Shown here in pieces: positions 4,069 to 56,384 of a DNA stretch of 64,000 nucleotides. The position numbers and the translations under genes are program-made. Every line of letters starts with the position of its first letter. The stretch's first letter is position 1. The stretch lies in the NCBI GenBank assembly GCA_963920765.1, contig OY987247.1:6544471-6608470 (forward strand), read 5' to 3'. The DNA is from Ulota crispa (lineage: Eukaryota; Streptophyta; Bryopsida; Orthotrichales; Orthotrichaceae). The notes below the pieces were generated by a model. It did not search any database and was not told where the DNA came from. It saw only the letters and a program-made list of their open reading frames with translations.

Positions 4069-4137
4069 TTAACCTCAAAAGGCCCAACTATCCCCTCAAG
4101 GGACAAATGGGATTTTGGGCATTCTGTTAAGGTAGCC

Positions 4138-4664
4138 CCATAAGCATGAAAAGAAAGGATTCCAAGTGCAATAACCAAGAAAGGGACCTAGAAAAAAATA
4201 CCCTCAGGTTAGCAAATGGGAATGAAAAATATTGGCATCAAATTAAAAGTTTTAGTGGCAGGCATTTGGTCACACAATTTTATCAAAGTCAAAAATTACT
4301 TTTGAGTGATGGTTATTGGTTATGGGTGATGAAATGATGGTTGTGGATGACTAGTATGAGGTTTTGAGTACCCATCTCACTATTCAAGAACCAACAAGTC
4401 TTGTTTTTAGCATCTCTTACACATGGTTCCTACAATTTCAGGGATTTTGGACTTTGAAAAATCTTTGCGAACAAATGCTTGTAGCTGAAACCTTGAAATT
4501 GATGCCAATATTTTTGGTTTCCACTTCCTAACTTATAGTATTTTTTTTCAAAGTTAGTCAATTGTGTTACCTACTCCAAAACCCTTATTTCCACGCCTAT
4601 GGGTGTGCCTACCTTATAGGTCACGCTAATGGAGACCCTTTTGTTAATGGGTGCTGCTATCTTA
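4138..4664. mobile_element. AGGTAG-family MITE (TA target), copy 2, nested
   Basis: It starts TA|AGGTAGCCCCATAAGC and ends ATGGGTGCTGCTATCT|TA. The flanks rejoin as GGGCATTCTGTTA + CAACTAAACCACTTTGTG, which lines up with the uninterrupted ~940-bp relatives (GGGCATGTACCTACGGCTAAAC near 56245 in complement). This gives an empty-site proof of insertion at TA. A second, internal end-like site lies at about 4600-4616. The interior is related in inverted orientation to 13699-14107. Confidence 0.7.
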
Positions 4665-5044
4665 CAACTAAACCACTTTGTGTAATTTTTTGAAAATTTT
4701 ATGAAGGGTGGGCACCTCAAAAACTTTTAAAAATTTGCATTATTTTAAAAATAAAAATCTGAAATTGGTTCTTGAGAGAGAGAGAGAGAGAGTGATAGGG
4801 GGACAATGCACTAAAATTTGACATGAATCAAATTAGGAGAAGTGTTAATAAGAAATCATTTAGAAAAAACATCAAATTAAGATTAAAATGCTTTAAAAAT
4901 CATTACAAGTTCACCATTAGTCTAAAACCAATACATTCTCACGTTATTATTAGAGCTTTCAACATACGTAATTTTAAATTTTAGATTTAGTGAAGTATTG
5001 ATGGTGTGGGAGGGGTGTGATTGAGGAATGGATCTTTGTGTCCC

Positions 5045-5104
5045 CATATATATATATATATATATATATATATATATATATATATATATATATATATATA
5101 TATA
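5045..5104. repeat. (TA)n microsatellite
   Basis: About 30 uninterrupted TA units sit within the disrupted foldback element. Confidence 0.95.
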
Positions 5105-5329
5105 TTATACATACATGCATACATATGGGAAGCTTTGGATCATTCAATTTTGATTGATGAGATGAATGTTATGAGAAGTTTTAGTTTGGGGATAGTTGTG
5201 GAGTTTCTCAAAACCATATCTACCACTAGACTAAAGATTCTCATAACATTCATCACATCAATCAAAATTGAATGATTTAGAGCTTTCCACATATGTGTAA
5301 ATCTAAAAAACTAGTTTCGAATTTTTATT

Positions 5330-6063
5330 TTAACCCCTAAAGGACCAAGCCTCCTTTTTGGGGACAAATGGATTTTTGGGCATGTAGTCATGGCTAAACT
5401 ACTTTGCGTGATATTCTAAGACTTTTGGAAGATGGAGAATTCAAAGATCTATGTGGGCATCTAATTTTTTCTTCATTCTGACATTTATTGAAGAAGTTGA
5501 AAATGAATTTTTGGGAAAAGGCCCAGATTGGGCAGCCCAAAAAATTCTTAAAATTTGCATTTAAAAAAAATAAGAACACAAAATAAGATCTTTAGACTTA
5601 TTATATATATAGGTGGGGAGCTTTGAATCATTCAATTTTTATTAATGAGATGAAAGTTATGAGATGTTTTTGTTTGTGGGTAGGTGTGATTTTGAGAGAA
5701 ACCATACCTACACACAAACAAAAACTTCTCACAACTTTCATCTCATCAATGAGAATTGAATGATTCAAAGCTCCCCACCTATATATACAACAAGTCTAAA
5801 GATTGTATTTCAAGTTTTTATTTTTTTTTAATGCAAAATTTAAGAATTTTTTGGGCTGCCTGATCTAGGCTTTTTTCCAAAAAATCATTTTTAACTTCTT
5901 CAATAAATGTTAGAATGAAGAAAAAATTAGATGCCCAAGTAGATCTTTGAATTCCCCGTCTTCCATAAAAGTTTCAAAAAATCACGCAAAGTAGTCTAGC
6001 CATAGATACATGCCCAAAATCCCATTTGTCCCCCAAGGGGATAGTTGGTCCTTTAGGGGTTAA
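5330..6063. mobile_element. Complete TTAA-ended foldback element, nested in a relative
   Basis: It starts TTAACCCCTAAAGGACCAAG and ends with the inverted GGTCCTTTAGGGGTTAA. Almost the whole 734 bp folds on itself: CAGATTGGGCAGCCC (about 5523) mirrors GGGCTGCCTGATCTAG (about 5852), and the arms CTTTGAATCATTCAATTT / AATTGAATGATTCAAAG flank the centre near 5690. Removing it and one TTAA from the host element at 4069-6299 restores a sequence aligned with related copies, so TTAA is the target duplication. This is characteristic of piggyBac-like transposons. No transposase is encoded. Confidence 0.8.
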
Positions 6064-6299
6064 AAAATGTAATTTTTAAAAAAGCTTTTGGGGTGCCTAG
6101 CCTCCCCTATTTTTCATAAATTCATGCATAATTTTTGCAATAAATGTCTAAATGAAGAAAAAATTAGATACCCACGCAGTACTTTGAATTTTCCAACTTC
6201 AATAAAAGTTTCAAAAAATCACATAAAACAGTTTGGTTGCAAAAGTATGTTTAAAATCCCATTTGTCCCTTGACGAGACAGTTGGGCCTCAGGGGTTCA

Positions 6300-54454: not shown

Positions 54455-54810
54455 TTAACCCTTAAAGGATGGATGGATCACCGTGGCTTGCCCTGCTTGT
54501 AGCATTCTATAGTATTTTGCACATGGGCACCAATAGTATTGCTTCAAAAAGTTGGAAAAGTCAATAGTGCATGGTGCCCTCATGAAAATTGCAAGAAGGG
54601 CAGCTCGGGAGCTAATACCATGTATCACAATTTGGGTTACAAAACAAAATGAATGTATTTCAAGAGGTAAATTTTTGCCTTCCATAATGCACTACGCATT
54701 TATGATTACTTCTAAAAAAAATTAGATCAAAATCAGTCTTTTTTTGGGATACAAAGTCATTTTTTTGAGACAAAGGACGTTTTTTGTCTGTGCCAACATC
54801 TAGGGGTTAA
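54455..54810. mobile_element. TTAA-ended element, 356 bp
   Basis: It starts TTAACCCTTAAAGGATGGAT and ends GCCAACATCTAGGGGTTAA. The interior is unrelated to the other families listed here. Confidence 0.6.
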
Positions 54811-54956
54811 GAAATGAAACCCATACCTTTTTGACAACTTTAAAATTCAAATTTAGATATTTCAGTTGTTTTCTTTGCTTGATGTTGAGACTGTTAGTTG
54901 CTTGTACTGGGACATCCCTACCCATTTGGCTTATTAGCACATCATATTTTTAAGGG

Positions 54957-55349
54957 ATGACTAGGGGACACCCCCAGTTTCTACGTGGACACCCCTATAG
55001 CCCAATCTATTAAATTTGAGATTATTATTATGTTGAAATTTGAAATAAAATCAAAACAATATTTTAGTGCACATTCGCGTCTACAAGCATTGCAAAAAAA
55101 TAACAAATATGTCTCATTCTTGACATGGTCAAAAGTTAAACTTATAAATGAAGAGAGCGACTTGTTTAACTCTTGACCATGTCACAAATGAGACATAATC
55201 TATATATGTTTGCAACGCTTGTAGGCGCAGATGTGCACTAAACTATTGTTTTGATTTTATTTCATATTTCAATGTAACACTAATCTCAAATTTAATAGGT
55301 TGGGCTCAAGGGGTGTCCACGTAGCAACTGGGGGGTATCCCCTAGTCAT
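54957..55349. mobile_element. Foldback MITE (ATGACTAGGGG ends)
   Basis: ATGACTAGGGGACACCCCCA ... GGGGGGTATCCCCTAGTCAT, with inner arms CATCTTGACCATG-type (TTGACATGGTCAA / TTGACCATGTCA) folding nearly the whole 393 bp. No unambiguous duplication; the superfamily is unknown. It sits 9-16 bp from a TTAA pair. Confidence 0.65.
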
Positions 55350-55364
55350 TTGTATTTTTAACCC

Positions 55365-56301
55365 TTAACCCCTAAAGGACCAAGCCCATTTTTCTGCCAA
55401 AATCACTAAAAACTGCCATTTCTAGGAGGTTTAGAAAAAAGGGATTTTATGTTTTGTTTTTGGGAAATCCAACCATAGGATCTTGCCCCAGATTAGAAGA
55501 GGTACTAGTGGGAAAAAAATCAGCTCATTCCAGATGGAGAGGAGTGACATATTTACATCTAAAGTGAAGAAAAAAGTTTTTTTCCATGCTCCCAGAAAAT
55601 TTCAGTAGCCTTTGACCACTCTTATAACAAAAAAATTGCTCTACCCAAAGTAGCGCTTTATTTTTTCCATGTAGAAGATCAAGTTAGGCATGTGTAGGAG
55701 AATTTTCAAATCAATTGGAACTTTACAAGACATGGGAAAAAATAGTAAGTAAAAAGAAGTAGAGAATGAGTCAAAACACTAAATTGTTAAGAACTTAATT
55801 ATGGAAATGAAAAATGCAAATCCCAATGGTGATAATGTTATGATGAACAATCTACTTCCTTAGGTTTAATTATTTTTCCAAAATATTGAAAATTGAGGAA
55901 AATAAAGGACTTCAAAGTTTATTTTAGAGTAGAGATTCTATAACTGCCCACAAACAAAAACTCCTAACTTTCATGTCATTAATTGAAATTGAATGATTCA
56001 AAGCTTCTCATGAATAAAAAAAATCTAAAGAACCAATTTCAAATTTGTATTTCAAATAAATGTGATTTTTAAAGAAGTTTTTGGGCTGCCCGAGTGGGCA
56101 ATCCTCCCCAAATTTTCATAATTTCATGCATAACTTCTTTGTCAAATGTTAGAATGAAGAAAAAATTAGATGCCCACGTAGATCTTTGAATTCCCCACTT
56201 TCAATAAAAGTTTCATAAAATCACACAAAGTAGTTTAGCCGTAGGTACATGCCCAAAGTCCAACCTGTCCCCCAAAGGGACAATGGTTCTTTAGGGGTTA
56301 A
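55365..56301. mobile_element. TTAA-ended element, ~940-bp family, complete inverted copy
   Basis: It starts TTAACCCCTAAAGGACCAAG and ends ATGGTTCTTTAGGGGTTAA. It is the reverse complement of 10080-11022 (for example CCCATTTCTAGGAGG-type left end, GATCTTGCCCCAGATTAGAA). An additional TTAACCC (55358-55364) abuts its left end, and its right TTAA is shared with the next element. Confidence 0.8.
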
Positions 56302-56384
56302 ACGCCAAAGAGGACAACTTTAGTCCCCGCAAATACACAAAGTCCCATGTACCCACAATGACATCCCTAGCGCTTAAGGGTTAA
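56298..56384. mobile_element. Minimal TTAA-ended element, 87 bp
   Basis: It starts TTAAACGCCAAAGAGGACAA and ends CCTAGCGCTTAAGGGTTAA. It shares its left TTAA with 55365-56301. Confidence 0.6.

Follow-up and report, generated by a model that had tools for sequence, protein, structure and literature searches.

TTAA-edged repeats in the moss Ulota crispa with the ends and, in longer relatives, the transposase of the piggyBac superfamily

A 64-kb stretch of DNA from the moss Ulota crispa (C6:6544471-6608470; "the window" hereafter denotes this whole stretch) is crowded with repeats that carry TTAA at their edges and termini of the CCCYTAAAGG type, and we have followed these repeats through the host genome assembly (274.8 Mb, 157 contigs). 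Contigs are designated C1 to C11, sampled genome loci L001 to L040, and four loci read around transposase genes L041 to L044. Known chiefly from animals, piggyBac is a standard tool of animal genetics. Our data make it very probable that the moss repeats are elements of the piggyBac superfamily, consisting of mostly decayed transposase copies together with thousands of short, non-autonomous miniature inverted-repeat transposable elements (MITEs).

Results

Terminal motif, TTAA edges, and end classes

A preliminary description of the window, made from its letters alone, had reported TTAA-edged repeats with common termini. Motif counts bear this out, i.e., the terminal motif TTAACCCYTAAAGG is enriched and occurs in pairs that bound TTAA-edged elements of widely varying length. 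The window holds 43 matches when up to two mismatches are allowed, versus a mean of 1.72 and a largest value of 5 upon shuffling. Across the whole genome, the exact motif occurs 18,588 times (9,337 + 9,251) and its backward control 3 times (1 + 2), and the CCCYTAAAGG core occurs 22,833 times (11,385 + 11,448) against 389 (192 + 197) for the control. TTAA stands directly before 18,588 of the 22,833 cores (81%), as is expected of elements with a TTAA target. The corresponding figure for the window plus 20 loci (74 of 79 cores, with mixed bases outside the TTAA) is biased because these loci were chosen at motif matches, and the genome-wide 81% is the unbiased value.

Eight pairs in the window depart from the motif by no more than one base at either end. 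In the window and L001 to L040 together, 94 candidate end pairs were identified; 73 were kept, having both edges no more than one mismatch from TTAA, and 21 were dropped. Edges read TTAA/TTAA in 61 of the 73 kept pairs and TTAG/TTAG in one (L037). Homology to 32 elements from other loci covers at least 11,171 bp, or 17.5%, of this single window. The paired, TTAA-edged structure described previously is thus confirmed, with the qualification that some window elements do not show a clear end on both sides.

The ends fall into the classes CCCCTAAAGGACCAAG, CCCCTAAATGCCCAAG, CCCTTAAACGTC, and CCCCTAAGCGCCC and their relatives (labeled AAAGG, AAATG, AAACG, and AAGCG), with AAAGG being the commonest; a single base of the ten separates AAAGG from AAATG ends. 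In 41 of 65 pairs, the left and right ends are of the same class, compared to a mean of 22.4 and a maximum of 34 in 2000 shuffles. The termini CCCCTAAAGG, CCCCTAAATG, CCCTTAAACG, and CCCCTAAGCG all begin with CC(C/T)T, which is the rule given for termini within short inverted repeats in the accessible part of a study of coral elements (PMC2872659). Perfect inverted repeats extend for 12 to 14 bp beyond the TTAA in two family consensuses.

Elements in the window

Elements are given below by window position, all on the plus strand. MITEs with AAAGG ends lie at 5330..6063 (734 bp, both ends exact, inside related repeat sequence), 7054..7295 (a 242- to 247-bp family with exact ends and two more sampled copies), 10080..11022 (943 bp, adjoining an older right end at 10070-10083), 14810..15731 (a ~920-bp family with exact ends and relatives in L008 and L012), 29132..30025 (894 bp), and 55365..56301 (937 bp). 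Rejoining the flanks of 5330..6063 yielded 47 matches elsewhere, 12 of them gapless at the junction, with TTAA in 5 of these 12. The ~655-bp MITE at 7292..7946 has an AAATG left end, whose TTAA is common with the preceding element, and a right end with 3 mismatches; over its first 49 bp it matches, at 80% identity, the left terminus of C5:10867266-10873011, a transposase-bearing element described below.

Two of the AAAGG copies are nested, each sitting in a TTAA within the terminus of an older element. Around 29132..30025, the older element belongs to the ~234-bp family and occupies about 29125-30241, with a decayed right end and the 234-bp-family repeat at 30007-30249; excising the inner copy from the sequence restores TTAACCTTTAAAGGACACAGCGTGCCG, a terminus resembling L014:2818. 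Likewise, excising 55365..56301 from the older element that ends at 56384 restores TTAACCCTTAAACGCC. In both cases, the flanks rejoin at TTAA to a normal terminus.

The 234-bp MITE family, with TTAAA(T/C)G ends, is represented at 35618..35851, as established by a genome-wide family search and consensus, and by further members of ~234 bp recognized from motif ends and repeat comparison at 43572..43803, 45734..45968, and 46778..46996. The 947-bp element at 44164..45110 has a TTAAAGG left end and is homologous to sampled elements only at 44905-45110, and it is possibly a ~240-bp-type element carrying an insertion. Other MITEs measure 80 bp (21469..21548, from motif ends and end pairing), 106 bp (31935..32040, with a relative at L006:164-258), and ~355 bp (54455..54810, homologous over its whole length to sampled elements, with similar ends at L010:6514-6867 and L019:5145-6256). 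A 775-bp element at 18216..18990 has a left end of the AAGCG class and a right end of the AAAGG class; an inverted relative begins at 19145 and is partly masked (N at 19450-19649). The ~437-bp element at 11594..12030, with CTGAAGG-type ends, was paired by eye, automatic pairing having instead linked 11594 to 13264. Finally, a ~890-bp element at 24862..25755 has the right end GCTTTAGGGGTTAA and a left boundary placed by homology only, with no clear left end.

Families and copy numbers

When ends were paired across the window and 20 loci, 50 elements emerged, falling into eight multi-copy clusters and six singletons; because clustering was by single linkage, families may be joined by nested composites. 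Of the seven or more unrelated interiors counted in the preliminary description, the many sizes are real, but several interiors cluster as versions of a single family, among them the 734-bp copy at 5330, which joins copies of ~930 bp. We therefore rejected a fixed count of seven, since lengths within groups vary via deletions and nesting.

Genome DNA searches with MITE families were scored for 40 candidates each, and the candidate totals are unverified copies that may overlap. On this basis, first-look candidates number 3,863 for the 234-bp family, 9,799 for the 937-bp family, and 2,254, 4,567, and 2,139 for three others. The best matches to the respective window copies are 94.0 to 97.0% identical to the consensus in the 234-bp family (8 copies) and 93.4 to 95.8% identical in the 937-bp family (12 copies), from which both families appear to be neither fresh nor very old. 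The families have the properties of MITEs, being short, non-coding, high in copy number, and uniform in length, and having the ends of a parent. No transposase-bearing parent was present among the 40 scored candidates of each search with three AAAGG families and one AAATG family, in which the matches were full or near-full MITEs and fragments.

Transposase genes

The genome-wide search for DDE_Tnp_1_7 transposase that the preliminary description had proposed as a check located this domain (PF13843) at 120 places, and longer elements with ends of the types above encode it. More specifically, the profile search returned 528 first-look candidates, of which 116 were scored, giving 120 matches, each of them above threshold (top score 254 bits, E = 1.3e-73) and spread over contigs C1 to C11; none of 14 control genomes gave a match. 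Only 10 of the 120 matches are stop-free, the remainder being broken. The genome holds at least about a hundred transposase-coding copies, mostly decayed, and two delimited elements are 5.7 and 6.0 kb long.

Four transposase loci were read (L041 to L044), the first choice favoring copies with few stops. Open pieces matched PF13843 with E values of 8e-60 (L043), 2.6e-59 (L041), and 4.1e-67 (L042), and L041 matched the known structures of piggyBat (9c0f, E = 1.7e-16) and piggyBac (6x67, E = 3e-13). Residues D268 and D346 of piggyBac are aligned in L041, L042, and L043, and D447 in L042; the catalytic DDD positions are complete in L042, and L041 has two in its first piece and a GVDVADQ motif in its second. 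By eye, a cysteine-rich C-terminal tail is apparent in L041 (CQCC-x-CRTFCPMC-x-LC-x-DC) and L044 (CVVC-x-CTTC-x-CVDRC), where the sole Pfam match is a weak, sub-threshold one of B-box-like type in L044. A protein search with the L043 transposase gave 16 matches (best 53%), none of which carries an organism name, and among the best 120 of 780 matches to the Trichoplusia ni piggyBac protein the named ones were insects. A tblastn search with T. ni piggyBac against 335 kb of sampled DNA gave nothing better than E = 2.8, and no transposase was seen by eye in the open reading frames of the first 20 loci.

Transposase between the element ends

Transposase of the DDE_Tnp_1_7 type lies between ends of known class in two elements, namely, C5:10867266-10873011 (L041; AAATG ends) and C4:4126481-4132490 (L044; AAGCG-type ends). 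Both are bounded by TTAA-C(C/T)CCTAA on the two sides, and L043 is so bounded on the right side only. In L041, the flanks of the transposase resemble both ends of the 927- to 931-bp AAATG MITEs of L010 and L014, and element ends were therefore predicted just outside the DNA first read. Reading 561 + 301 further bases revealed an exact TTAACCCCTAAATG at C5:10867266 and its complement at 10873011, delimiting an element of 5,746 bp with perfect 15-bp inverted repeats. Relative to the 931-bp MITE L014:1891-2821, its first 141 bp are 73% and its last 554 bp 86% identical; because both terminal regions match, the 927- to 931-bp MITE family appears to have arisen from a C5-type element by internal deletion.

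The transposase-bearing element at C4:4126481-4132490 measures 6,010 bp, and its ends (CYCCTAAGCRCCC) were placed by the stopping points of other copies. At the left, TTAACTCCTAAGCGCCC stands at C4:4126481, where 7 other copies begin (query 102-103); this search gave 39 other matches, with 40 of 62 candidates scored, and among the remaining matches 1 begins at 98, five bases earlier, and the other 31 fall within upstream flanking sequence. The right end, at C4:4132490, is the complement of TTAACCCCTAAGCACCC; in the search past query 2600, two of four other matches stop there (2792-2793), one stops at 2656, and one lies in the flank. By coordinates only, the 670-bp copy C2:16835576-16836245 places the first ~285 and last ~390 bp of the C4 element side by side, and it is an apparent deletion derivative of that element. 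Parents sharing both terminal regions are accordingly at hand for the 927- to 931-bp AAATG family and, by coordinates, for this 670-bp copy. As for L043, three other copies stop at 5335-5336 with the end CCCTTTAGCG / TTAACCCTTTAGCGACC, and each of them adjoins a match to the transposase C-terminal region, two standing beside a PF13843 match.

Several further features of the transposase copies were recorded. Within L041, a 430-aa charged and repetitive frame (L041:3802-5091) precedes the transposase on its own strand, within the 5.7-kb element; it has no Pfam match and may be a long N-terminal part, an extra gene, or captured sequence. The frame at L042:2314-3480 (C2:34594948-34595949), a stop-free piggyBac-type frame of 389 aa with three catalytic aspartates, is a candidate domesticated gene, and C1:1180709-1181995 and C8:19570986-19572215 are also stop-free. 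Pairs of transposase matches in opposite orientation, with equal or nearly equal scores and 15 to 110 kb apart (C7:18203169/18223004, C2:36765124/36779670, and C10:676128/785346), are possible inverted segmental duplications. Counted without a codon-usage control, the stops that interrupt the frames of the first 60 among the 120 matches comprise 125 TAG, 77 TGA, and 26 TAA, the pattern to be expected if CAG (CHG) and CGA (CG) sites had decayed via cytosine methylation.

Target duplication

The clearest empty site is that of L002:5822-6756, which lies inside a copy of the 234-bp family; all 29 matches to its rejoined flanks are gapless, and 23 of the 29 carry TTAA. The empty site of L024:344 has TTAA in both of its gapless matches (four matches in total). 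A four-base duplication is favored over a two-base one because L037 has TTAG on both sides.

Discussion

The earlier assignment of these repeats to piggyBac, made from TTAA edges and CCC-type ends, is supported now that a PF13843 transposase has been found between such ends. The two findings named beforehand as fatal to it, i.e., another transposase type or a genome-wide duplication other than TTAA, were not seen, with deviations at some empty sites. A piggyBac origin is demonstrated for AAATG and AAGCG elements. The AAAGG class, to judge by its near-identical ends, was probably mobilized by a transposase from that superfamily too. The moss elements share with T. ni piggyBac and piggyBat the TTAA target and edges, CCC termini, and short inverted repeats, as well as a DDE_Tnp_1_7 transposase with its DDD positions and cysteine-rich tail. 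They differ from T. ni piggyBac in their host, a moss, and in a transposase of ~25% protein identity; moreover, unlike a typical piggyBac of ~2.5 kb, they are 5.7 to 6.0 kb long, with an extended region preceding the transposase, lengths within the 1.23- to 9.51-kb range of animal piggyBac elements given in the accessible part of PMC10813416.

Several observations weigh against a piggyBac identity for the whole set. The AAAGG class is tied to piggyBac solely through the near-identity of its ends, and none of the four transposase loci read has a copy with an AAAGG end (TTAACCCCTAAAGG). As the preliminary description had stated for the window, no transposase match (E ≤ 0.05) occurs there, nor in L001 to L040. 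Among the transposase loci, L042 has no TTAA-CCC ends within the 5.8 kb read, and L043 has no left end within 6 kb; L043 has an open frame, but with N in place of D as the third catalytic residue (D, D, N). TTAA is symmetric, such that most copies cannot separate a 4-bp from a 2-bp duplication and only L037 can. Empty-site support is thin, with a matching uninserted relative for 7 of 60 tested elements, and several sites depart from expectation: L003:3239 gives AAAA in 27 of 27 gapless matches (33 in total), L022 is mixed (TTAA in 1 of 8), L006:6348 gives TTCA in its single match (1/1), and L004:2210 has no gapless match among two.

Part of this evidence could be accommodated by a mixed origin, in which only AAATG and AAGCG elements belong to piggyBac and the AAAGG class stems from a different TTAA-targeting transposase with convergent ends. 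Such a scenario would account for the lack of a transposase copy with CCCCTAAAGG (AAAGG) ends among the four loci read and for within-class end pairing above that of shuffles (41/65), but AAAGG and AAATG ends are alike at nine of ten positions, both classes use TTAA, and mixed-class pairs exist (6 GG/CG pairs, some perhaps mispaired). We consider a mixed origin very unlikely. Nor is TTAA exclusive to piggyBac; Sola3, with a Sola transposase, targets it too. Kolobok-type elements likewise target TTAA, as the accessible text of PMC6004289 describes, but the termini reported there start with AG/RR, whereas those in the moss start with CCC, and it is a piggyBac transposase that lies between such ends in the longer moss elements; judged by the termini and by the PF13843 profile, the transposase model searched, a Kolobok identity is highly improbable. 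It might also be argued that the transposase copies are chance neighbors of motif-dense DNA, since in a genome so dense in such ends a single end near a transposase means little alone. However, the ends were set by the stopping points of independent copies (for the C4 element, 7 at a single base of the left side and 2 of 4 on the right; for L043, 3), and the C5 end regions were chosen by MITE homology before the exact ends appeared; we give chance proximity almost no credence.

If the moss elements move by the known piggyBac mechanism, their transposase would recognize CCCYTRAR-type termini and excise the element at the flanking TTAA, and reinsertion at another TTAA would duplicate those four bases. 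The MITEs, in which no gene was found, would be moved by transposase made elsewhere. At least two kinds of MITE look like transposase-bearing elements minus their inside. Some termini (CCCTTAAAGG) contain TTAA, such that elements insert into the ends of one another, and the nests and chains of the window result. More tentatively, and with slightly less than even confidence, we envisage that several piggyBac transposase lineages co-evolved in this one moss with separate end dialects (AAAGG, AAATG, AAACG, and AAGCG). Each lineage would have given rise to MITE families of its own, until piggyBac MITEs made up a large share of the genome and, via the TTAA within their termini, served as mutual landing pads; piggyBac would thus have been a leading DNA transposon of a land-plant lineage.

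A close likeness exists to the coral CMITE elements, which, according to the accessible part of PMC2872659, are short piggyBac-type MITEs with TTAA edges, several coexisting end families, 13- to 14-bp CCC-type inverted repeats, and insertion into a TTAA inside another element, as here. The coral families are of ~100 bp and estimated at tens to hundreds of copies, whereas moss MITEs measure 80 to 940 bp, with thousands of candidates per family. The T2-MITEs of Xenopus, related to Kolobok, resemble the moss elements in TTAA target and abundance and differ in AG/RR termini and another transposase (PMC6004289, accessible part).

The preliminary description had called such elements scarcely described in land plants. 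This holds insofar as the accessible texts of moss genome papers do not contain the word piggyBac: it is absent for Pleurozium (PMC6723128), Pohlia (PMC9247546), and Ptychostomum (PMC11704416) and from a 2026 Physcomitrium review (PMC13120521), and the Niphotrichum text has it only as "piggybacking" (PMC10619864). On the other hand, a review counts plants among the hosts of piggyBac-like elements (PMC8086355), a table in a fern genome paper has 1,230 "PiggyBac" fragments totaling 122 kb (PMC6890710), and a grass genome paper has one of 75 bp (PMC8319324), again in the parts accessible. Because the literature covered consists of open-licence papers, without subscription papers or Repbase, priority is unproven. 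The kind of element is known; host, scale, and parent-derivative pairs make the finding worth reporting. A land plant with piggyBac transposase-coding copies and thousands of candidate MITEs, with parent and derivative in one genome, makes testable the course of a piggyBac invasion in a plant, whether mosses share that invasion, and whether plant annotations with unclassified repeats hide piggyBac elements.

Other features of the window and sampled loci

A ~370-bp fold-back repeat, whose relatives match in both orientations, occurs in the window at 22183-22553, 37168-37537, and 47528-47899 and at L041:772-1198; none of the listed CCC-type ends falls at this repeat. Two copies of a ~480-bp block (12521-13002 and 16887-17367) are 90 to 93% identical, the first containing a 162-bp tandem repeat. 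A minisatellite at 38345-38818 is built of 15/31-bp AGGGGGCAYGGGGAT-type units, the 15-bp unit being present in ~30 copies, and L004 contains a run of 200 N bases. On the minus strand, 59164-60063 holds a partial copper amine oxidase frame (PF01179, E = 2.8e-15). A 481-aa frame at 40322-41767, with no Pfam family over the cut-off, is conserved in mosses; of its 22 protein matches, those bearing an organism name all come from mosses, namely, Ceratodon purpureus (59%), Physcomitrium patens (58%), and Sphagnum magellanicum (35%).

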